Shown piece after piece: positions 3,505-20,486 of a stretch of DNA of 20,486 bases. A program made the translations under genes and the position numbers. Where the stretch lies: the IMG/VR virus record IMGVR_UViG_3300009081_000051, positions 1 to 20,486 of that record. One strand, given 5' to 3'. The stretch is from a virus. Positions within the stretch are counted from its first letter, which is position 1. Every line of letters begins with the position of its first letter. The notes beneath the pieces were generated by a model. That model made no database searches. It had not been told where the DNA came from and worked only from the letters and a program-made list of their open reading frames with translations.

Positions 3505-4077
3505 ATGCATTACACATATTGCCATATTTCTGAAAGTACAAATCAAATCTTTTACTACGGTAAAGGAGCAAGAGAGCGTGCTTATACAAAAAATTGCAGA
3601 AATAAAAAATGGCATGAAGTTGCAAAAGATGGCTACAAAATAGAAATTCTTGCTTATTGGCCTACTCATGAAGAGGCTTTAGAGCATGAAAAATTGCTGA
3701 TCTTATGTGGCAGAGATTTAAAACAGCCACTAGTCAACATGACGGCTGGAGGTCAAGGGGTTTCTGGATCAAAACATTGGCTTGGCAAAAAACACAAACC
3801 AGAGTCATTGGCAAAAATGAGCGCCTCTCAAAAAGGCACAAAACGCAGAAAAAGCATTAAATTTAGTCTTGCAAATACTGGAACAGAAAATCCAAATTGG
3901 AAAGGCGTCTGGATTACTCCAGATGGCATTTTTGATACCTGCCGTGAAGCCGCAGAACACCATAAAATTGACACAAGGACAGTCCGCGCTCGTTGCAAAG
4001 GCTATAAAGAAAAACTGGTCAATTTTGTAAAAACTTACCCGCCAAAAGAAGGCTGGTCTTTTAAGTCAAAGGAATAA
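3505..4077 (+). CDS. Free-standing GIY-YIG homing endonuclease with NUMOD DNA-binding motifs
   Basis: The 190-residue product begins with a degenerate GIY-YIG nuclease domain: YTY at residues 3-5, FYYGKG at 16-21 (YIG equivalent), conserved Arg at 23/25, and a helix EEALEHEKLL whose Glu62 fits the catalytic metal-binding glutamate. Residues 76-85 (L-x-N-x-T-x-G-G-x-G) are typical of phage GIY-YIG homing enzymes. A NUMOD3-like motif follows (GKKHKPES to SQKG, about 94-111), then a C-terminal NUMOD1/IENR1-like helix-turn-helix segment (WITPDG, CREAAE, VRARCKG, about 138-170) for target DNA recognition. It starts two bases after the adaptor stop with no clear SD, is more A-rich than its neighbours, and its last codons supply the SD of the next gene. 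It probably cleaves an intron-less or HEG-less homologue nearby to spread itself. Confidence 0.85.
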   Translation: MHYTYCHISESTNQIFYYGKGARERAYTKNCRNKKWHEVAKDGYKIEILAYWPTHEEALEHEKLLILCGRDLKQPLVNMTAGGQGVSGSKHWLGKKHKPESLAKMSASQKGTKRRKSIKFSLANTGTENPNWKGVWITPDGIFDTCREAAEHHKIDTRTVRARCKGYKEKLVNFVKTYPPKEGWSFKSKE

Positions 4078-4079
4078 AC

Positions 4080-7000
4080 ATGGCAACAGGTAGCCTTTAC
4101 GGATCTTCATCAGAATCCACTGGTTTGTATGGCATTGGTGCTGCTTCTGGCGGTACTTATTTTGAATGGTTCATCTTTCAAGATTCAGCAACTGCTCCTG
4201 CAACTCCTACAGGGGGTTCTTGGAGCTTTACAAACAACACTGGTACAGCACCTAGTGGTTGGGTGGTATCTCCTCCTCCAGCCCCTGTAAACCAAGTGTG
4301 GGTTTCTATTGCTGTTGTTGATTCTCGCAATGCAACTACGCTTACATGGTCAGTACCAGGATTGATGACAGGCTCTGGCTTGCCTATCCTTACAGGTGCT
4401 GGTGTACCTTCTTCTGGAACTGGTTTGAATGGTCAGTTGTATATCAACACCAGTACAACTCCTCAAAGCCTGTACAACAAGCAATCAGGGGCTTGGGTCC
4501 AACTGACAGGATCTAACCTTGTTGACCTTGTAAACAACCAAACCATTGGTGGCGTTAAGACCTTCAGCGAAACAATCCAAGGCAGCATTTCTGGCACTGC
4601 TGGTAACGTATCTGGTACTGTTGCTGTCGCCAATGGCGGTACAGGTGCTACAACTGCTGCTGATGCTCGCACAAACCTTGGCCTTGGCACTATTGCCACA
4701 CAAGCTGCAAGCAACGTAGCAATCACTGGTGGCTCAATTACTGGCATTACTGACTTAGCTATTGCTGATGGTGGTACAGGGGCTTCTACAGCCGCTAATG
4801 CACGTATAAACCTTGGTGCTGTTGGTTTGACTGACACACAGACACTGACAAACAAGTCAATCAGCGGATCTGCTAACACCCTGACCAACATTCCTAACTC
4901 TGCCCTGGTAAACGACAGCGTTAACGTCAACGGTGTGGATCTGACCCTTGGTGCTGTTCAGTTGTTGGGCCCTGATTGGATTTTGCCTTCTTACGCAGGT
5001 AATGCAGGTAAAGTTCTGGCCTTGAACCCTTCTGCAAGTGATGTAGAGTGGATTTCTGCTGGTGGTGTTGGTACTGTTACTAGTGTTGATGTATCTGGTG
5101 GCACAACTGGTTTGACAACATTTGGTGGTCCTATTACGGCTGCAGGAACTATTACCCTAGGTGGCACATTGAGCCTCCTTAACGGTGGTACAGGTCAAAC
5201 AACAGCTAATGCTGCCTTTAATGCTCTTGTGCCTTTGCAAACAGGTAACAGCGGCAAGTACCTGACAACAAACGGCACTGATACATCGTGGGCTGCTAAC
5301 CCCTTGGGAACAGTAACTTCTGTTAGCGGTACAGGTACTGTTAGCGGCCTGACATTGACTGGTACTGTCACTACCTCGGGCAACTTGACTTTGGGTGGTA
5401 CGCTTAATTTGTCTGCTCCTCCTGCTATTGGTGGCACAACACCTAATACAGGTGTTTTTACCAATTTAACTGTCAATGACAACACCATTCTTGGCAGCAG
5501 CAACTCTGATACTGTAAGTTTCAACGCTCGTGTCAATTCAGACATTGATCCTTCTACCAATAACGCATATGACCTTGGTAGAAATGCTCATGCTTGGCGT
5601 AATCTGTATTTGACAGGTACAGCCAACATTGCTGCTTTGACCACCTCCAGCACAGTGACGTTGAACGGCGGCACAGCCAACGGCGTTTCTTTCCTGAATG
5701 CTTCCAAAGTCCTGACCACTGGGTCTGCGCTAGTCTTTGATTCTGCTGACCGCTTGATTGTTGGTGCGGGTTCTGCGGCTATTGGCAATCGTATTGAAGT
5801 TGTGGGAGTTAGCTCTGGTGGTGCTATTTCAATTCGTGGTCGTGCATCAGATGCGCTTGGCTACCTTGGTTGGCACGCCAACGCTGCCGCCACAGAATAC
5901 GCAAGGATTTCCTCAGATAATACTTCATCGCTATGGTTCGACACTGGCGGCTCCGAAAGAATGCGCCTGACCAGCACAGGTCTGGGTATTGGGACGAGTT
6001 CGCCTACCGGGAGGCTGACCGTTCTTCGCAACTTAACTGGCGCAACCGACTTCAGCACAGAACAAATTTCTGTTTTTAACAGCGCAACTGGTGCAACGGG
6101 GAATCAAGCCACTATCGGTTTTCACTTGAACAATGCGGATTGGGGGCCATCAACTACGTACGCCCGTATTTCAGCAGTTTCGGAAAACGGCACAACTGGC
6201 GCAACAGCGTTAGCTTTTGGCACGGCTACAAATGGTTCTTTAGCAACCCCCGCAGAACGGATGCGTCTCGACGCCTCCGGCAACCTCGGTATTGGGACGA
6301 GTTCGCCCACAAAAAAACTTCATGTTGTTGGCGGTGATGCGACAGGGTTTTTGCTTGACAACGGTGGGCAGCAATTTACTCAATTGTTGCTTCAGCGAAA
6401 CGGAACAGCAAATACTGGCGGCGACATTCTTGTTGACGGTACAAACAGTACCTTTAGCCTCCGCAGTTTGCTTGTTGGCCCGATGACTTTTAACACTGCT
6501 GCAACAACAGGCAACGCAGTGGAGCGCATGAGGATCGACTCCTCCGGCAACCTCGGTATTGGCACTACAAGTCCTACTGCCAGACTTAGTGTGGCTGGAA
6601 ACATAGAAACTGTTGCATCCGCTAATAGATATTTAAAAGCATCTGGTTGGATTTCAAATCAAGTTGGACAAGACTCGGATTTTGGTGCTACTGATGTTGG
6701 GATAGTTGCAAAAACGGGAGTAAATCTTTGTTTCATTACTGGCAATGGTTCTACTGGTAATGGTAATGAACGCGCCCGTATCGACTCCAGCGGTAACTTG
6801 CTGGTGGGGAAAACTGCTACTGGTGATACAACGGTCGGCTTTGAAGTTCAACCTGTCGGCACAATTGTTGTTTACCGTGATGGTGGCCCGGCTGGTATTT
6901 TTGGAAGAAGCAATGATGGCGAGTTAGTTCGTTTTAACCGTGGGGGATTTGGTGATGTTGGCTCAATTGATGTCACGACAACTTCAACCTCTTACAACAC

Positions 7001-7313
7001 CTCCTCCGACTACCGCCTGAAGAACACCATTGCCCCAATGACAGGCGCATTGGCAAAGGTGGCATTGCTCAAGCCTTGCACATACAAGTGGAACGCTGAT
7101 GGCTCTGACGGTGAAGGCTTCATTGCTCACGAACTTGCTGAAGTTGTGCCTCAGTGCGTAACAGGCGAGAAAGACGCAGTGGACGCTGAAGGCAAGCCAC
7201 AGTACCAAGGCATTGACACCAGCTTCTTAGTGGCTACATTGACAGCGGCTATCCAAGAGCAGCAAGCCATCATCAACTCACTCAAGGCACGTTTGGATGC
7301 CGCCAATCTTTAA
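4080..7313 (+). CDS. Tail fibre with C-terminal peptidase S74 chaperone
   Basis: This 1077-residue protein is a trimeric-fibre candidate. A Gly/Ser-rich N-terminus (1-25) is followed by a compact module (27-96) related to the repeated modules of the 1179-residue fibre downstream. A Thr/Gly/Ala/Asn-rich beta shaft comes next, with three GGTG-x-T/S-T-A repeats (near residues 187, 232 and 369) like those of other phage fibres. Four ERMR/GIGT repeats occur between residues 626 and 922. The last 102 residues are an intramolecular chaperone (S74) starting SDYRLK, with the Ser976/Lys981 pair known from endosialidases to drive self-cleavage. GFIAHEL follows, and a terminal coiled coil (EQQAIINSLKARLD) that would hold the trimer during folding. 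Strong SD AAGGAA ten bases upstream. It most likely binds a cell-surface polysaccharide or protein, but no enzyme domain is visible. Confidence 0.88.
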   Translation: MATGSLYGSSSESTGLYGIGAASGGTYFEWFIFQDSATAPATPTGGSWSFTNNTGTAPSGWVVSPPPAPVNQVWVSIAVVDSRNATTLTWSVPGLMTGSGLPILTGAGVPSSGTGLNGQLYINTSTTPQSLYNKQSGAWVQLTGSNLVDLVNNQTIGGVKTFSETIQGSISGTAGNVSGTVAVANGGTGATTAADARTNLGLGTIATQAASNVAITGGSITGITDLAIADGGTGASTAANARINLGAVGLTDTQTLTNKSISGSANTLTNIPNSALVNDSVNVNGVDLTLGAVQLLGPDWILPSYAGNAGKVLALNPSASDVEWISAGGVGTVTSVDVSGGTTGLTTFGGPITAAGTITLGGTLSLLNGGTGQTTANAAFNALVPLQTGNSGKYLTTNGTDTSWAANPLGTVTSVSGTGTVSGLTLTGTVTTSGNLTLGGTLNLSAPPAIGGTTPNTGVFTNLTVNDNTILGSSNSDTVSFNARVNSDIDPSTNNAYDLGRNAHAWRNLYLTGTANIAALTTSSTVTLNGGTANGVSFLNASKVLTTGSALVFDSADRLIVGAGSAAIGNRIEVVGVSSGGAISIRGRASDALGYLGWHANAAATEYARISSDNTSSLWFDTGGSERMRLTSTGLGIGTSSPTGRLTVLRNLTGATDFSTEQISVFNSATGATGNQATIGFHLNNADWGPSTTYARISAVSENGTTGATALAFGTATNGSLATPAERMRLDASGNLGIGTSSPTKKLHVVGGDATGFLLDNGGQQFTQLLLQRNGTANTGGDILVDGTNSTFSLRSLLVGPMTFNTAATTGNAVERMRIDSSGNLGIGTTSPTARLSVAGNIETVASANRYLKASGWISNQVGQDSDFGATDVGIVAKTGVNLCFITGNGSTGNGNERARIDSSGNLLVGKTATGDTTVGFEVQPVGTIVVYRDGGPAGIFGRSNDGELVRFNRGGFGDVGSIDVTTTSTSYNTSSDYRLKNTIAPMTGALAKVALLKPCTYKWNADGSDGEGFIAHELAEVVPQCVTGEKDAVDAEGKPQYQGIDTSFLVATLTAAIQEQQAIINSLKARLDAANL
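4158..4367 (+). repeat. Fibre module shared with the 1179-residue fibre
   Basis: Residues 27-96 of the S74 fibre have the same layout as the five modules at 10463-11893: an aromatic start (WFIFQD), P-T-G spacing, a W-x-F segment, a conserved SGWVVSPP turn, a hydrophobic strand (QVWVSIAVVD) and a closing TLTWS strand. Similarity is seen at protein level only; the DNA has diverged. Confidence 0.6.
5955..6845 (+). repeat. Four ERMR...GIGT repeats in the S74 fibre
   Basis: Copies start at 5955, 6255, 6522 and 6768 (Glu626, 726, 815 and 897). Each reads E-R-M/A-R, six residues, GNLGIGT or a variant, SPT, then a short beta strand (LTV, LHV or LSV). Copies 1 and 2 share a 20-base identical run ending in GAGTTCGCC, and copies 2 and 3 share a run around CCGGCAACCTCGG. 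The fourth copy has decayed (LLVGKTATG). Such repeats cap beta-helical segments in many phage fibres, and the DNA identity gives sites for recombination. Confidence 0.8.
7005..7313 (+). other. Peptidase S74 / intramolecular chaperone domain
   Basis: The domain begins at Ser976 (TCC at 7005) in SDYRLKN, the expected autocleavage site, and Lys981 would complete the catalytic dyad. In characterised members (endosialidases, T5 L-shaped fibre) the released chaperone trimerises the fibre and is then lost, so the mature fibre here would end at residue 975. Confidence 0.85.
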
Positions 7314-7629: not shown

Positions 7630-9242
7630 TGTCTGATTACCAAAGAATCCGAACACCATTTATAGGCGTGTCCTTCACCCCGGACGTTCCTAGTAATGCG
7701 CTGGGTACAAATGAATATAACAGTGGGCTTAACGTAGAGACTGATGTTCGTGGTATTAAAAAGATCTTTGGTGAACAAGAGATTCTGAGTGTCATCCCTA
7801 ACGAGCCTATCTTCATGGAAGGTGGGTATCGTTCTGAAGCTCAATGGGTTTACATCGTTGCCACCAGAGACTCTTCTAGTCAGGGTAGGTGGTACATGCT
7901 TACCTCTTCTGGTATCAGCAACATCACCCCCGGTGTTGGTGCAAACCCAAGTGTTTCCCTTGCTGGATACGCTGCTGATCTAAACATCACTGTTTCTGTA
8001 GTCGGTGGTGTTTTCTTCATTAACGATACATTGAACAACCCAATGTATTTCTTGCCAACATCAACCGAGATTGTCTATTCGGCAGATGCAGGATGGAATT
8101 ACGAGCCTGGAGTTACCAAGACAACTGCAGAGTTTGTCAGAAACTTCTGCTCTCCAAACGTAGGCAACATTCTGATTGCTGGCAACATCACTAAAGTTAG
8201 TGGTGGCATCACAACCAACTATCCGACAACTGTACGTTGGTCACAAGCATTTGGTTTGACTGGTTACCCTGAAACATGGGAGCCGACTCTTTCAAACGTT
8301 GCTAACGAACAAGAAGTTCCTGTTCGTGGACCATTGGTTGATGGCTTTGTTTTTGGTGGCAACTTCTACGCTTGTTCCTATTGGGATACAGTAGTTTTCT
8401 CTCCAATCAATTACCAGAACTCCACAGCACCAGTATTTGGTGTTCGTTTGTTTAATCAGGGTCGTGGGTTGATCAACAACAACTGCTGGTCAAACGCAGA
8501 CACACATGTCTACGGTGTAGATGCTCGTGATATCTGGATGTTTGATGGCTCAAGCTTCCAATCCTTGGGCAACCAAAAGGTCAAGAATTACTTTTACAGT
8601 AACCTAAGTACAACTTACTCTGACCGTATCTTTATGGTCAACAACACTCAAAAGAACCAGATCGAGATTTACTATCCTGACCTGACTTCTACTGGTTACT
8701 GCAACAAGATGCTGTCGTACCGCTATGACTTGCAGATCTGGAATGCTCCTAAAGACATTGCAAATGCTTGCATGGGTGCTGAAGGCCCTCAGTTCATCTC
8801 AGGATCGTTCAAGAAGGCATCTCGTGTGGTTACCTATGCCCGTGGTGGTGTAGCTAATCAGAAGCTGGTTCAGACCAACATTGGCAACTCGTTTATCAAT
8901 TCAGCACCAATTCCTGCTTTGTTTGAACGCAACAACATTGTTTTGCAATCAGATAAAGGTCCGATTCCTTACAGTTCTAAAGTGTACACACACAGACTGT
9001 TGCCTGAGATCTCTGGTACTGGTGCTATCAACATTTCTGTGGGTGGTGCTAACTCTACTGCTCAAGCACCGACATACGGTCAATCAGGAATTACATCAAT
9101 TGACACTAACAGCCCTTGGGTAACAACTCAGCAAAATGCTGTTCGTACAGTATCTGTCAAGGTTGAATCTAATGATGCAACTGACACATGGAACTTAACA
9201 GCGTTAAACTGGCAAGCAACCATTGTTGAGGACGCTTTCTAA
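7629..9242 (+). CDS. Tail nozzle-like protein (T7 gp12 / P22 gp10 role)
   Basis: The 537-residue protein is beta-rich with no membrane segment. Repeated short blades contain a strand, a G/N turn and an aromatic (for example SEAQWVYIVAT near residue 65, GGVFFINDTLNNP near 130, THVYGVDARDIWMFDG near 300, NQIEIYYP near 345). This is the blade-like pattern of beta-propeller nozzle or tail-stabilisation proteins that close the tip of short tails. The N-terminal LNVETDVRGIKK and the SLGNQKVKNYF segment also fit that group. The C-terminal 100 residues (Ser/Thr/Asn-rich) look like a separate beta domain. The start at 7629 is set by GGAG at 7619-7622 and the TGATG overlap; a TTG 12 bases upstream is less likely. 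A general tail or baseplate beta protein is the alternative. Confidence 0.5.
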   Translation: MSDYQRIRTPFIGVSFTPDVPSNALGTNEYNSGLNVETDVRGIKKIFGEQEILSVIPNEPIFMEGGYRSEAQWVYIVATRDSSSQGRWYMLTSSGISNITPGVGANPSVSLAGYAADLNITVSVVGGVFFINDTLNNPMYFLPTSTEIVYSADAGWNYEPGVTKTTAEFVRNFCSPNVGNILIAGNITKVSGGITTNYPTTVRWSQAFGLTGYPETWEPTLSNVANEQEVPVRGPLVDGFVFGGNFYACSYWDTVVFSPINYQNSTAPVFGVRLFNQGRGLINNNCWSNADTHVYGVDARDIWMFDGSSFQSLGNQKVKNYFYSNLSTTYSDRIFMVNNTQKNQIEIYYPDLTSTGYCNKMLSYRYDLQIWNAPKDIANACMGAEGPQFISGSFKKASRVVTYARGGVANQKLVQTNIGNSFINSAPIPALFERNNIVLQSDKGPIPYSSKVYTHRLLPEISGTGAINISVGGANSTAQAPTYGQSGITSIDTNSPWVTTQQNAVRTVSVKVESNDATDTWNLTALNWQATIVEDAF

Positions 9243-12200
9243 TGCCATTCGCACTTGATTCAAGCCCAAGCACTTCAGAAATTTCTGAGGCAATTAACTA
9301 TTTGCTTGGAAATTTTGGGGCCAACATATCTGCTGATCCCAATACAGGCCAAGTTATTGGGCCTACTGGTCAAGTGTCTGGTTACTTGTACAAATACATG
9401 GCAGTTAAGTATGCCGACAGTTTTGATGGCTCTGTTGACTTCAGCAACAGTCCAACAAACCGTCTGTACTTTGGACTCCGCAATAACAACGATCCTGCTG
9501 AATCAAGTAATCCTGCTGATTACATTTGGTATGAAGCTGCTGGTGGTTTTGGTGTAACTAAATCTCTTTGGTATGTAAGCACTGGTGGTAGGCAGATTCA
9601 GTTTGAGGTTTCTGTTACTGCTCCTGATGCTGGTTGGCTTGTGGATCCTGGATCTTCTATTGACTTGGATGTGGTTACCTCTGGCAACATCCCTGTCATT
9701 GCAGAAGCTTTTGTTCCTTACTTCACGCCAAACACATTGCAGGTTCCTAGAACTGGAACCCCTTTAGCACCTGTTTTTACGAACATTACGCCAACAATGT
9801 ATGCAACAGACGCTGGTGCTGTTGTTCCTTTTGTTGATGCTCAGACAGATACTGCTGTTAACTTTGTTAATGGCACATGGCGTATTGGTAACAGTTCAAT
9901 AACTGGCTACGCTGACATCTCCAAAACCAACATCACCATTGGAGATCCAACTGATGCTGGTGATTATGCTCAGTGGCCTAATCCAACTGCAATGTCAGCA
10001 AGCCCTGCTTACATTACCGTTCCTGTTCGTTACAAAAACAACTCAGGTGTTGTTGCCCAAGCTGGTGTTGCTACTGTTCAACTGGTATTTACTGACCCTG
10101 GTCCTGCTGGTGCTGATGGCACTGATGGCACTGATGGCACTAACGGTAGCCCCGGACCAACTTTAGACATTACTGGCTTTACTGCGTTTGCTCAAAATGC
10201 TGGTGGTGCTTTTACTCCAGCAAATGCAACTTTGTCTGCTGTCATAGCAAACATCACATCTCCAACATACAGTTGGACGATTTCTGGTGCAACTCCAACC
10301 AGTTCAACAGCGTCTTCAGTTGTTATCACGCCAACATCATCGTCTACTGGCGTTACCGTCACTTTGACTGTCAATGGATCAAATCTAACTTCTCCATTGT
10401 CCAAGCAGGTAATCTTGCCTGTTGTCTACGATGGTGCTGCTGGTAGTGCTGGTGCAAACGGATTGATGTCTGCTTTCCCGACCATCTACATTTGGACAGG
10501 ATCGTCAGTACCTCCTACAAGGCCCTCAACCACTTCTACCTACACTTGGTCTACTGGTGCATATACAGCGCCTTCTGGGTGGTCTACAGAGGCCCCTAGC
10601 AACACTACCCCGGGCAACTTTTTGTGGAGCATTACTGTTCCATTAAACGTATCTGCCACCACAACAACGTCCACATTGGATTGGACAAATACAGCAAACC
10701 CAATTCGTGCTATTGCTTACAACGGTACAGATGGTATTAATGGAACAGATGGAACCAATGGTTTGAACGGAACCAGAACAGCAATTCTGGATGTTTACCA
10801 ATGGGGTGCAACACCTCCAACTTCCTTTCCTTCTGGCACATCTACGTATACGTGGGCAACAGGACAATTTACCGCTCCTGCAGTATTGAATGGATGGAGT
10901 TTGTCTCCACCAACACCTGTACTTGGTCAGAATTTGTACATTGCTCGTCAGATCTTTTCTGACACAAATACATCTGCCACCTCTTCTATCACCTGGACTG
11001 TTGCTACTTCAACGCCAATATCTGCTGCTGGTGTTGATGGACAAAATGGAGCAAGAACTGCCTACCTTGAGGTTTATCAATGGGCAGCAACTACCCCCAC
11101 TACGTTTCCATCTGGAACCTCAACATATACATGGGCTGATGGAGCTTTTACAGCACCAGAAACGCCTAATTCTTGGTCCTTAACTCCCGGTGCGGCTACT
11201 CCCGGTTACACCTTGTATGCTTGTTCTGTCAGCTATTCAGATACAAACACTTCTGCAACATCTACAGTAACTTGGAGCACCAATACTGCTTTTGTTGTTG
11301 GCTTTGCTGGTAACAACGGCAACAATGGAAGCGATGGAACTAACGGCACAAGGACTGCAATTCTTGAGATGTACATATGGTCAGCATCAGCACCGACTGT
11401 ATTTCCATCAGGAAACTCTACATACACATGGGCAACAGGTCAGTTCACAACTCCCGGTGTTGCTAACGGGTGGAGCATCATTCCTCAAGCAGCAATCCTT
11501 GGGGAAACCTTATGGGTGGCTCGAGTTATCTATGCTGATACCAACGTCACTGCGACAACAAGCATCATATGGAATGCCACTGTTGCATATGCCATATCTG
11601 CTGCTGGTGTTGATGGTAGTGATGGAACCAACGGAGCAAACGGAAGCAGAACGGCTTTTCTTGAGTTGTATCAGTGGGCAGCAGTTCTTCCTACTGCTTT
11701 TCCTGCTGGCAACTCTACGTATACATGGGCTGACGGATCATTTACTGCCCCAACAGCATTGAATGGATGGTCCTTAACTCCCGGTTCGTCTACGCCTGGA
11801 TACTTCCTGTTTGCTTGCTCTGTCCGCTATACAGACAACCTAACAACATCAACGTCTACAGTTACTTGGAACACAAGCAACGCATACGTTATTGGAGCAT
11901 CAGGCAACAACGGAACAAACGGTACAAACGGATCTAATGGTGCTGCTACCTATGTGATTACTCGTACTGCCAACGACAGTTCTGCCCCAACCAATGCAGA
12001 GGTCAGTGCTTTGCTTGGCCGTAATCCTGTTGCTGGTGACATTTGTACTGTGTCGTACAACTCTTCCAACAATGCTGTTGTGTATCGATATACAACTGCT
12101 TGGGTTTTGTTTCAGACGTACATCACTGGTAGCTTGATTGTCCAGAATACGATTACTGGCGACAAGATTTCTGCTAATACGATTACAGGAACAAACATTG

Positions 12201-12781
12201 CAGCTACAACAATTACTGCTGCAAACATTGCCGCCAATACAATTACTTCAAGTCAGATTGCTGCCGGAACAATTACAGCAACTCAAATTGCTGCTGCAAC
12301 CATTTCGGCCGCAAATATGGCCGCAAACAGCATTACTGCTGGCAATGCTGCGATTGCTGATGCTGCAATTACAACCGCAAAAATTGGTGTGGCACAAATT
12401 GATACTTTAAGAATTGGACTTAATCAGGTTTCTTTTACAGACGCTGCAGCATCCAGTGGAAACGATGCCTCAGTAACAGTAAACATGGTAACTGGCGAAA
12501 CTGCTTTTGTTTCAGGCATATGCAACAACTCACCAGACTACGATGCACCTGTTTGGACCAGATTACATTACGTAAAACTAGGCAGCACCACTTTATCAAG
12601 CCAAACAATTTCTTCAAACTTGACTCAAGCTGGATTTAGACAATCTTTTCCAAGCACAAATATTTCAATTGAACACGTTGCTACATATACTGGCGCCCAT
12701 ACTTTTTCTGCGGGTTACTCTGGAGGAGGAGCATTTGCTGGCGGCGCAACATCAGTGGTTGTTATTGGATTAAAAAGATGA
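9242..12781 (+). CDS. Large modular fibre / host-recognition protein with collagen-like linkers
   Basis: This 1179-residue protein is built of clear parts. Residues 1-285 are N-terminal beta domains, with LYFGLRNNND and DYIWYEA near residue 90. A collagen-like linker of six G-X-Y triplets (287-305) leads to an Ig-like domain (about 306-397; PTYSWTISG, VTVTLTVNGS). Five related modules of 83-87 residues (408-884) are joined by G-X-Y linkers rich in Asn, Asp and Thr instead of Pro. A further domain (901-965) is followed by decapeptide repeats (970-1040) of the T-I-T-x-x-x-I-A-A-x type seen in the stalks of lambda-J-like and other tip proteins. A 120-residue tip ends it. No signal peptide or enzyme motif. 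All features suggest a long trimeric fibre whose tip contacts the host. Its ATG overlaps the preceding stop (TAATG). Confidence 0.8.
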   Translation: MPFALDSSPSTSEISEAINYLLGNFGANISADPNTGQVIGPTGQVSGYLYKYMAVKYADSFDGSVDFSNSPTNRLYFGLRNNNDPAESSNPADYIWYEAAGGFGVTKSLWYVSTGGRQIQFEVSVTAPDAGWLVDPGSSIDLDVVTSGNIPVIAEAFVPYFTPNTLQVPRTGTPLAPVFTNITPTMYATDAGAVVPFVDAQTDTAVNFVNGTWRIGNSSITGYADISKTNITIGDPTDAGDYAQWPNPTAMSASPAYITVPVRYKNNSGVVAQAGVATVQLVFTDPGPAGADGTDGTDGTNGSPGPTLDITGFTAFAQNAGGAFTPANATLSAVIANITSPTYSWTISGATPTSSTASSVVITPTSSSTGVTVTLTVNGSNLTSPLSKQVILPVVYDGAAGSAGANGLMSAFPTIYIWTGSSVPPTRPSTTSTYTWSTGAYTAPSGWSTEAPSNTTPGNFLWSITVPLNVSATTTTSTLDWTNTANPIRAIAYNGTDGINGTDGTNGLNGTRTAILDVYQWGATPPTSFPSGTSTYTWATGQFTAPAVLNGWSLSPPTPVLGQNLYIARQIFSDTNTSATSSITWTVATSTPISAAGVDGQNGARTAYLEVYQWAATTPTTFPSGTSTYTWADGAFTAPETPNSWSLTPGAATPGYTLYACSVSYSDTNTSATSTVTWSTNTAFVVGFAGNNGNNGSDGTNGTRTAILEMYIWSASAPTVFPSGNSTYTWATGQFTTPGVANGWSIIPQAAILGETLWVARVIYADTNVTATTSIIWNATVAYAISAAGVDGSDGTNGANGSRTAFLELYQWAAVLPTAFPAGNSTYTWADGSFTAPTALNGWSLTPGSSTPGYFLFACSVRYTDNLTTSTSTVTWNTSNAYVIGASGNNGTNGTNGSNGAATYVITRTANDSSAPTNAEVSALLGRNPVAGDICTVSYNSSNNAVVYRYTTAWVLFQTYITGSLIVQNTITGDKISANTITGTNIAATTITAANIAANTITSSQIAAGTITATQIAAATISAANMAANSITAGNAAIADAAITTAKIGVAQIDTLRIGLNQVSFTDAAASSGNDASVTVNMVTGETAFVSGICNNSPDYDAPVWTRLHYVKLGSTTLSSQTISSNLTQAGFRQSFPSTNISIEHVATYTGAHTFSAGYSGGGAFAGGATSVVVIGLKR
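10100..10156 (+). repeat. Collagen-like G-X-Y linker 1
   Basis: Residues 287-305 give six uninterrupted G-X-Y triplets (GPA, GAD, GTD, GTD, GTN, GSP) plus a final Gly. Further linkers of the same kind lie at 10433-10462, 10724-10771, 11030-11050, 11300-11347, 11606-11644 and 11894-11941, each between modules. Such triplets can form a collagen-type triple helix in trimeric phage fibres. Confidence 0.75.
10115..10141 (+). repeat. Perfect 3 x 9-base tandem repeat in linker 1
   Basis: GATGGCACT is repeated three times without mismatch, encoding D-G-T three times. Gain or loss of a unit keeps the reading frame and changes the linker by exactly one G-X-Y triplet. Confidence 0.9.
10463..11893 (+). 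repeat. Five tandem fibre modules in an A'-A-B-A-B order
   Basis: Modules lie at 10463-10723, 10772-11029, 11051-11299, 11348-11605 and 11645-11893. All share an aromatic start (Y-x-W), a P-x-x-F-P-S/A-G turn in copies 2-5, STYTW, a GWS or SWS turn and a T-x-T-W closing strand. Copies 2 and 4 (86 residues) share a LG-x-x-L-x-x-AR strand and end in ISAAGVDG. Copies 3 and 5 (83 residues) share TPGY-x-L-x-ACSV and end in a GNNG linker. The last four are therefore a duplicated two-module block. Confidence 0.8.
12149..12358 (+). repeat. Decapeptide (30-base) stalk repeats
   Basis: From Thr970, six clear ten-residue units follow the form T-I-T/S-x-x-x-I/M-x-A-x (TITGDKISAN, TITGTNIAAT and so on), with at least one decayed unit after them. 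The Ile spacing fits a beta-helical or trimeric stalk before the tip domain. The DNA shows the same 30-base rhythm but with scattered third-base changes. Confidence 0.85.
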
Positions 12782-19602: not shown

Positions 19603-19773
19603 AATTGGCATATAGCAGCAAGCCTCTGATGTACTAGACTCAACACTGACAAAAGACTGACCGTAAGGATTGTTCACTTGTTCAGGGTGATGAAACCATC
19701 TGCGGCAGTTCTTGCAGTGTGAGTCTGGTAGCTCTGGCTGACATCTTGAGTAATCAAACGGCAGGGTGTTCAT
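19585..19773 (-). CDS. Small Cys-rich protein, convergent with lysozyme
   Basis: A 62-residue protein with Cys at 11, 20, 23, 52 and 53. The C-x(8)-C-x-x-C group, with His19, His28 and His29 near it, could bind zinc. No family recognised. The start at 19773 is well supported: GGAG eight bases before the ATG, and the gene begins within the last codons of the DUF3310 gene, so the two are coupled. The stop lies 18 bases inside the lysozyme gene on the other strand. Reading in this frame makes a sensible composition across the full length, and it fills what would otherwise be an empty junction. Function unknown; small DNA-binding or regulatory roles are typical for such proteins but not shown here. 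Confidence 0.65.
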   Translation of the reverse strand: MNTLPFDYSRCQPELPDSHCKNCRRWFHHPEQVNNPYGQSFVSVESSTSEACCYMPISLLKK

Positions 19774-19996
19774 TTTTGTACTCCAGTTCCAAAAGCAGTT
19801 CTAGGTAATGGATTGCTTTCTTGATGTCGGCAGCACCATTCTTTTCTTTGTGGCGGGTAACGTACTTGATGACGTTGCCTTCACAAAACCCTAAATCATT
19901 TGCATGGATGTAGACAATGGGCTGGATGCCTTTGTCTTTGTAGTGGTTGCCTGATACTTGTTTATCAAGTGCAGATACTGAAACAGTAAATGGCAT
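19754..19996 (-). CDS. DUF3310 family protein
   Basis: The 80-residue product carries the DUF3310 signature: SGNHYKDKGIQPI near residue 15, then FCEGNVIKYVTRHKEKNG, then DIKKAIHYLELLLE. This small domain is widespread in phages, usually beside nucleotide-metabolism genes; some members are fused to or annotated with nucleotide kinase-like proteins, but the biochemical role is not settled. The ATG overlaps the stop of the MazG-like gene (TAATG), with AAGGAG upstream inside that gene. Pairing with MazG in one transcription unit suggests a shared role in nucleotide pools (inference). Confidence 0.88.
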   Translation of the reverse strand: MPFTVSVSALDKQVSGNHYKDKGIQPIVYIHANDLGFCEGNVIKYVTRHKEKNGAADIKKAIHYLELLLELEYKNEHPAV

Positions 19997-20313
19997 TACG
20001 ACTCCTTTACAAACTGACCGTCTTTGTTCATGTAGCCCTTGCGATTTTCAATGACCTTAAATGCCTGATAAAAGCACTGGCGCACATCCAGATCAGTCAA
20101 GACACCCACATTGACTAGTGTGACCATAACGTCACCAATAGCGTCAGCAATTTCAGCCTTGTCATCCTTGGCAATTGCTACCAACAACTCACAGGCTTCT
20201 TCAACGGTCTTGCTGGCTTGGCCTAGTGCTGTGCCATTTTCATAGATGCCACGAGCCTCAGCCCATTGCATGACCTGAAACTCTGTCATGCCAAACGATT
20301 GTGTTTCTTTCAT
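19996..20313 (-). CDS. mazG: MazG-like nucleotide pyrophosphohydrolase
   Basis: The 105-residue protein has the MazG-type metal-binding pattern: EEACE at residues 38-42 (E-E-x-x-E), then EIADAIGD at 54-61 (E-x-x-D), followed by a hydrophobic helix (VMVTLVNVG). The closing RKGYMNKDGQFVKES is typical of phage MazG proteins. Such all-alpha enzymes hydrolyse nucleoside triphosphates to monophosphate and pyrophosphate with Mg2+. In phages they are thought to adjust (d)NTP pools or alarmone signalling. It is a single-domain protein, shorter than bacterial two-domain MazG. The start at 20313 is chosen for AAGGAG five bases upstream; extending to 20448 would overlap the neighbouring gene in another frame. 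Its stop overlaps the DUF3310 start. Confidence 0.85.
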   Translation of the reverse strand: MKETQSFGMTEFQVMQWAEARGIYENGTALGQASKTVEEACELLVAIAKDDKAEIADAIGDVMVTLVNVGVLTDLDVRQCFYQAFKVIENRKGYMNKDGQFVKES

Positions 20314-20315
20314 GC

Positions 20316-20486
20316 TTACTCCTTGCTGATCATCCAAACACGCAGACCATAATCTTCCTTGCGGGTAGAAATTATCTTGGTTGGGTACTTCTTTTTTACA
20401 GCATTGATCTGTGCCCGAATGTAGCCAATCTTTTTGTTGTCGGTACAAGGGATGAAGAACGAATCACCTGACTCCATTTCGTCAAA
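20316..20486 (-). CDS. Small phage protein with GDSFF / TR / RVW motifs (5' end outside window)
   Basis: The frame is open from the window edge for 56 codons to TAA at 20316-20318. Visible motifs are MESGDSFFIPC, then IRAQINAVKKKYP, then STRKEDYGLRVWMISKE. The G-D-S-F-F start, a helix, and a closing T-R-x-x-x-x-G-x-R-V-W are familiar from small uncharacterised phage proteins (DUF7303-like, from memory). The Met at codon 4 could be the true start, or the gene may continue beyond the edge. Its last codons (AAG GAG TAA) contain the SD of the MazG-like gene, which begins two bases after its stop, so the two are translated in series. This gene is easily missed because the window cuts it. Confidence 0.7.
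   Translation of the reverse strand, partial: FDEMESGDSFFIPCTDNKKIGYIRAQINAVKKKYPTKIISTRKEDYGLRVWMISKE
20319..20324 (-). promoter_or_regulatory. Ribosome binding site that fixes the MazG start
   Basis: On the minus strand AAGGAG ends five bases before the ATG at 20313 and lies within the last codons of the upstream gene. It selects the 105-residue form of MazG over a 150-residue reading from 20448. Confidence 0.8.

Follow-up and report, generated by a model that had tools for sequence, protein, structure and literature searches.

A tail fibre encoded in a 20,486-nucleotide stretch of virus DNA, referred to here as the window, contains two copies of an ordered pair of small beta domains, A followed by B. 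We regard it as fairly probable that the fibre has an expandable, probably trimeric shaft, in which zero to three A-B cassettes set the reach between anchor and tip, and that the cassette is gained, lost, and exchanged as a unit. The evidence comes from the arrangement of the modules, the composition of their linkers, the number of pairs in related fibres, and a single insertion-deletion difference from a close relative.

Organization of the fibre gene

The segments of the fibre are listed in Table 1. The N-terminal domain is probably the virion-proximal end, and attachment to the virion would occur through it. Its predicted structure has a pLDDT of 81.8 and is Ig-like at residues of about 156–285; a fold search with this domain returned nothing beyond generic Ig-like matches. 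The stretch between the first Gly-X-Y run and module M1 was also judged by eye to be Ig-like. A preliminary description placed an ABAB array at 10772-11893. This span corresponds to residues 511–884, which are modules 2–5 of the fibre (A1 to B2), and the array is present there. The linkers follow module type as had been described, with GVDG after modules 2 and 4, and a GNNG-containing linker after modules 3 and 5.

Table 1 Segments of the fibre gene in the window.
Feature	Position	Strand	Basis or remark
Fibre gene, 1179 aa	9242..12781	+	Open reading frame; Pfam PB4_spike 29.1 bits vs cut-off 27
N-terminal domain, aa 1-285	9242..10096	+	Alignments; family-wide, 51-96% identity
Gly-X-Y run ahead of Ig-like stretch	10100..10162	+	Read from sequence
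Module M1, aa 409-494, own module type	10466..10723	+	Profile labels, tree
Gly-X-Y linker M1-A1	10724..10774	+	
Module A1, 86 aa	10775..11032	+	
Gly-X-Y linker A1-B1, short	11033..11053	+	
Module B1, 86 aa	11054..11311	+	
Gly-X-Y linker B1-A2	11312..11350	+	
Module A2, 86 aa	11351..11608	+	
Gly-X-Y linker A2-B2	11609..11647	+	
Module B2, 86 aa	11648..11905	+	
Gly-X-Y linker 3' of B2	11906..11941	+	Contains 11920/11921 site of 585-base difference to L002
Conserved post-array domain (AATYVITR...)	11942..12166	+	Probable counterpart, by colinear alignment, of decoration domain 2 on the T5 pb4 spike
NTIT-type repeats, then C-terminal tip unlike relatives' tips	12140..12781	+	Repeats by eye

Two module types form an ordered pair

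The claim that modules of the same type resemble each other more than their neighbours holds clearly in the window for the B modules, and for the A modules it comes to a tie at the protein level. The protein identity of B1 and B2 is 67% (54/81), and that of A1 and A2 is 58.3% (49/84), practically equal to the 58.0% (47/81) shared by A1 and its neighbour B1. The other comparisons across types give 51% (modules 3 and 4), 49% (4 and 5), and 48% (2 and 5), and at the DNA level A1 is 62% identical to A2 versus 58% to B1. Judged from the window alone, the ABAB signal is thin, and at the level of sequence it is the relatives that settle the two-type pattern. Over 54 pairs from the window and the relatives listed, mean identities are 0.618 for A-A and 0.633 for B-B, above the A-B means of 0.540 between fibres and 0.550 within one pair, so the existence of two module types is confirmed. 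Residues that distinguish the types are concentrated at module columns 56–60 and 31.

The order of the pair has been evaluated by a comparison of modules that does not use type labels, although the fibres entering it were chosen by profile score. In 48 non-redundant fibres with exactly two adjacent modules, the nearest relative of 90 of the 96 modules occupies the same position; 2000 rounds of random swapping gave 47.9 such modules on average and never more than 71. Therefore, A and B are old, position-specific types that form an ordered A-B cassette. Distances among A modules are correlated with those among B modules across pairs (Mantel r 0.715, computed without the window and L002), and none of 2000 permutations reached this value.

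Module M1 had been regarded as the divergent remainder of an earlier duplication of a single module. Its protein identity to modules 2–5 of the window is 39–44%. It forms a separate long-branch type in the module tree (100% support) and is labelled by profile in nearly all members of the N-terminal family among the best 80 of 155 hits, including fibres that have no A-B pair. Since M1 is a type of its own and occurs even in the absence of A-B pairs, it did not remain behind from the formation of the array.

Viral contigs were searched with the array (six loci), an alignment of pairs (best 80 of 248 matches), A alone (60 of 60 matches used), and B alone (best 80 of 180). Because a query made from the A1 pair is biased towards loci with A-B, the single-module searches and a search with the N-terminal domain described below were added. 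Module-based matches were grouped into 72 non-redundant fibres among the matches listed, and types were assigned by profile HMMs. The training set of 16 modules per type overlaps in part with the counted sets. These fibres contain 61 A modules, 47 of which are directly followed by B and four by a module of ambiguous type. The remaining ten precede another A (2), a weak module (1), a module at a distance of over 60 residues (2), or none (5, one of them at an end). In the sample found with A alone (47 fibres), B follows 41 of 53 A modules and an unclear module follows three. An A module without a directly following B occurs in L087, L148, L096, L065, L122, L138, and L217. B without A is common among the matches listed (L051, L073, L086, L199, L216, and L218). 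More than one pair is present only in the window lineage, L003, and L069 among the matches listed for the 72-fibre set. Outside the window's family, L072, L082, and L086 have tandem B-like modules with long NGT linkers and no A; L072 has weak matches to tail proteins.

The cassette is not confined to one site or one kind of protein. It is located after M1 in the window, ahead of an Ig-like stretch in L003, and within the protein of L006. The cassette-bearing protein of L006 has matches to tail fibre and tail spike families, and that of L069 matches central tail fibre J. A match among viral structures bears the name tip attachment protein J (67% identity).

Apparent change of fibre length by whole A-B pairs

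A sample independent of the modules was obtained with the N-terminal domain as the query. The best 80 of 155 hits, together with the window and L007, gave 62 non-redundant fibres. The numbers of A and B modules in the 60 fibres that are intact at the 3' end (best 80 of 155) are 0/0 in 46, 1/1 in eight, 2/2 in two, 3/3 in two, 2/0 in one, and 0/1 in one. The equality is broken by L292, in which two modules scored as A, and L297, with a single B; both are weak N-terminal matches outside the main family. In all 56 full-length fibres with good N-terminal matches (best 80 of 155), the number of A modules equals that of B modules, with no pair in 44, one in eight, two in two, and three in two.

The N-terminal tree was calculated without six of the 62 fibres, which are truncated 3' or have weak N-terminal matches. 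The distribution of pair presence on this tree requires ten changes, compared with a mean of 11.0 for shuffled labels. Pair presence thus needs about as many changes as expected from shuffled labels, which indicates that cassettes have been gained and lost repeatedly. One clade (100/99 support) includes all four states: L222 has no pair, L223 one, the window two, and L220 and L221 three. The distance from M1 to the conserved post-array domain in this clade is 106, 301, 493, and 688 residues, respectively, in steps of 195, 192, and 195 residues. Lengthening in two-module steps had been suggested as one consequence of the array, and the presence of zero, one, two, or three A-B pairs among relatives agrees with it: fibres appear to grow or shrink by two domains at a time. 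As read from these alignments, the unit that is gained or lost is the ordered A-B pair of about 195 residues.

Linkers and predicted structure of the modules

Glycine occupies every third residue in 46 of 47 A-B linkers among the matches listed, and linker lengths increase by threes. The median number of glycine triplets per linker is three within a pair, four before A, and five after B. The window protein scores 21.7 bits against the Pfam family Collagen (PF01391), below the gathering cut-off of 27.2. A collagen-like triple helix connecting trimeric domains would need glycines in register, and from this we infer a trimer.

An AlphaFold single-chain model of the pair has a mean pLDDT of 91.6 and a pTM of 0.49, and is weak only at linker residues 88–91. 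In the model, A and B are each a firm small beta domain, and the model does not define their relative orientation. The structure alignment was made without L002 and the divergent pairs of L058, L074, L079, and L211. The best solved match to the module model in VIA-align 2 is the straight fibre of phage DT57C, with a middling Z score of 6.7, and the next best reaches 2.5. Ig- and FnIII-like structures, of the cytokine-receptor type, match with Z scores of only 2.1–2.5. Foldseek returned no match to the PDB at an E value of 0.001 or better.

A 585-base difference from a close relative

The DNA of the window and L002 aligns with a single gap at 11920/11921, where L002 has 585 additional bases that are exactly its third A-B pair. 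Identity is mostly about 85–97% per 60-base block on both flanks of the gap, and the alignment ends beyond about 12200, in the tip. The junction lies inside a Gly-X-Y linker, in which the start of the L002 linker after B2 is joined to the end of its linker after B3, and inspection revealed shared sequence at the join. L001 likewise has a third pair at the same place as L002. The pairs of the window and L002 are 0.95 and 0.93 identical in DNA, and those of L001 are further off (0.83–0.86). At the N-terminus, by contrast, L001 and L002 are closest to each other (0.944). Because the N-terminus and the pairs give different closest relatives, the three sequences are mosaic. Since the window is nearest to L002 in its pairs and L001 also has the third pair, the simplest interpretation is that the window lost it. 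The window fibre most likely lost a third cassette that is still present in its two closest relatives, the direction of the change being deduced from three mosaic sequences. The contigs are metagenomic, and the join within the linker could in principle be chimeric.

The likely route of such changes would be recombination inside the repetitive linkers, for which the join between the window and L002 provides one clean junction.

Proposed function of the shaft

In the proposed shaft, neighbouring beta domains would be connected by short collagen-like Gly-X-Y linkers forming triple helices. The number of cassettes, from zero to three, would change the reach between the N-terminal anchor domain and an exchangeable tip. 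The modules may double as surface decoration, as do the small domains of the T5 pb4 spike. A more far-reaching formulation is finely balanced and leans slightly towards doubt: that an obligate two-domain A-B cassette spreads horizontally among phages that are otherwise different, in their tail fibres and their tail-tip proteins, and in one fibre family serves as a length ruler that changes in whole steps of about 195 residues, never in half steps, through recombination in the outer collagen-like linkers.

Receptor binding in phages usually resides in the C-terminal tip of the fibre, and divergence of the tip is its usual sign. The tips of 12 relatives are 18–32% identical to that of the window over 96–145 aligned residues, and their N-termini are 68–96% identical. 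Such divergence beside conserved N-termini is, on comparison of these proteins, tip swapping.

The modules could instead be mainly glycan- or receptor-binding units, the number of which tunes avidity or specificity rather than reach. For the tandem BACON domains of phage tails, one study (PMC6949934) put forward binding to the cell surface. The modules are small beta domains as well, and the restriction of type differences mainly to a few columns would suit such a role. Nevertheless, the modules have no above-chance match to carbohydrate-binding families in Pfam, NCBIfam, or PHROGs, and the fast-changing, unrelated part of the fibre is the tip, the usual place of receptor binding. We consider a primary binding role possible but unlikely.

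The modularity of fibres is known; step-wise change of length by a defined unit of two different domains is a testable and countable trait. With its four pair-number states, one clade supplies a natural series in which an effect of reach on infection could be told apart from that of the tip.

Origin of the two pairs in the window

The preliminary description explained ABAB as the duplication of a pair within the fibre, and the comparisons lend this no support in the form proposed. The single pairs of L043 and L014 each match pair 1 of the window at 77% identity, and for pair 2 the identity to pair 2 of L003 is 69%, whereas the two pairs of the window share only 59% (A) and 66% (B). In the pair tree, pair 2 groups with pair 2 of L003 (99/90), the third pair of L001 and L002 joins that of L014, its only one (98/84), and pair 1 of the window is nearest to L034 and L047, with weak support (81/65). 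By the AU test, neither the grouping of pairs 1 and 2 (p 0.408) nor that of pairs 1, 2, and 3 of the window, L001, and L002 (p 0.289) is rejected.

Local tandem duplication, in which an ancestral fibre copied its own A-B pair to give first ABAB and later ABABAB, with divergence of the copies, is therefore compatible with both AU tests, and the restriction of multiple pairs to three lineages among the matches listed also speaks for it. Against it, each pair of the window is nearer to pairs of other phages than to its partner, and the tree joins the second and third pairs to those of L003 and L014. Because the pairs are closer to those of other phages, exchange with loss is preferred, and local duplication appears rather improbable, although the AU test rejects neither clade. 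An old duplication followed by differential loss is possible. On sequence comparison, the A-then-B cassette of about 195 residues is old and has been gained, lost, and swapped as a unit among phage tail proteins.

Similarity of A modules, and of B modules, across phages could also result from positional constraint imposed by the flanking context rather than from common descent as a pair. The strong position-specificity of the types would be expected from this; however, A and B distances co-vary across fibres, and the cassette occupies differing sites and proteins, so we consider such constraint very improbable. It is harder still to credit that short-read assembly collapsed or duplicated the modules: the loci are nearly all metagenomic contigs and the modules are repeats, but the pairs of one fibre differ at about one-quarter to one-half of their residues, too divergent for collapse to come easily, and the two-pair and three-pair states recur in independent contigs.

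Similarity to T5 pb4 and to other known systems

The fold of the modules and the C-terminal neighbourhood of the array resemble the central fibre pb4 of phage T5, as judged from the models and alignments. The module model aligns with residues 480–552 of the DT57C fibre (T5/DT57C pb4, PDB 8HRE) with an rmsd of 2.9 over 68 residues. The window protein matches the PB4_spike profile (PF24168) with 29.1 and 28.9 bits, against a gathering cut-off of 27, over B2 and the next domain; the match covers just positions 156–308 of the 315 in the profile, its later half. The last B module, the Gly-X-Y linker, and the next domain can be aligned in the same order with pb4 of T5 and DT57C (hhalign E 5.2e-5, probability 67%, one comparison). 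A profile of the pair alignment has no significant match to pb4 (E 0.15, probability 0.4%). The spike of T5 bears two small globular domains on long linkers, according to passages of its structural description (PMC10038345). Where the window has M1 and two A-B pairs, just one module of this kind is present in T5 and DT57C, and the window fibre may be read as bearing an expanded version of the first decoration domain of the T5 pb4 spike. The two differ elsewhere: the N-terminal region of the window fibre is unlike that of pb4, and the window phage has a capsid and adaptor of the SU10 type. No pb3-type hub gene was identified within the window. A and B are candidates for a new domain family whose fold is akin to that of the decoration domain in T5 pb4.

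Among the cases found, the nearest studied one is the BACON array of crAssphage. The tail proteins of crAss-like phages contain tandem beta domains of this family, the number of which varies by lineage through duplication and horizontal transfer, and in the prototypical crAssphage lineage the array grew by duplications of single domains, as stated in passages of PMC6949934. By contrast, the unit in the window is an ordered pair of two types. The change in whole pairs thereby differs from the growth by single domains published there. The BACON family is absent from the Pfam matches of 12 A-B pairs at E values of up to 1. Repeat proteins can expand by several domains at once, with a unit of two the commonest overall, in a study whose relevant part concerns mostly eukaryotic proteins and local duplication (PMC1553488); compared with the units described there, the A-B unit additionally moves between different phage tail proteins. 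Domains of receptor-binding proteins are exchanged between the tail proteins of distant phages (passages of PMC10684548), and a counted two-type cassette, as in the window's family, is not described in those passages.

The A-B pair has no match above chance in Pfam, NCBIfam, PHROGs, or the sequences of the PDB. A tblastn search with the module found none in annotated phages, and searches of plasmids and species genomes found none; a second genome scan returned one contig with the module (L091). These near-empty searches indicate that genomes with a name hardly ever contain the module. A keyword search of the open-access literature gave no recognised account of the A-B cassette, which does not imply its absence from print. 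Fibre modularity, arrays of domains, and repeat units of several domains are already known; the variation on them seen here is an ordered cassette of two types that changes by whole pairs.

Other genes in the window and its relatives

Between the gene of the SU10-type adaptor and the first fibre gene, an open reading frame at 3505-4077 has a NUMOD3 motif (23.1 bits against a cut-off of 20.4) and is probably a homing endonuclease insertion. A second fibre gene (4080-7313) encodes a C-terminal Peptidase_S74 intramolecular chaperone. Residues 21–100 of this second fibre have 24–31% aligned identity to the modules; this candidate for a distant module copy was set aside because it is seen in the alignment only and is absent from the profile search at E 1e-4. 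In L007 (MW202484.1), a capsid protein match lies at 7976-9127 on the + strand, where the record annotates a hypothetical gene at 7955-9004 on the - strand, and the segment 7955-9130 is a probable misannotation. At the end of the window, the - strand at 19754-20448 carries a DUF3310 gene and a gene of a MazG/PRA-PH-like pyrophosphohydrolase.
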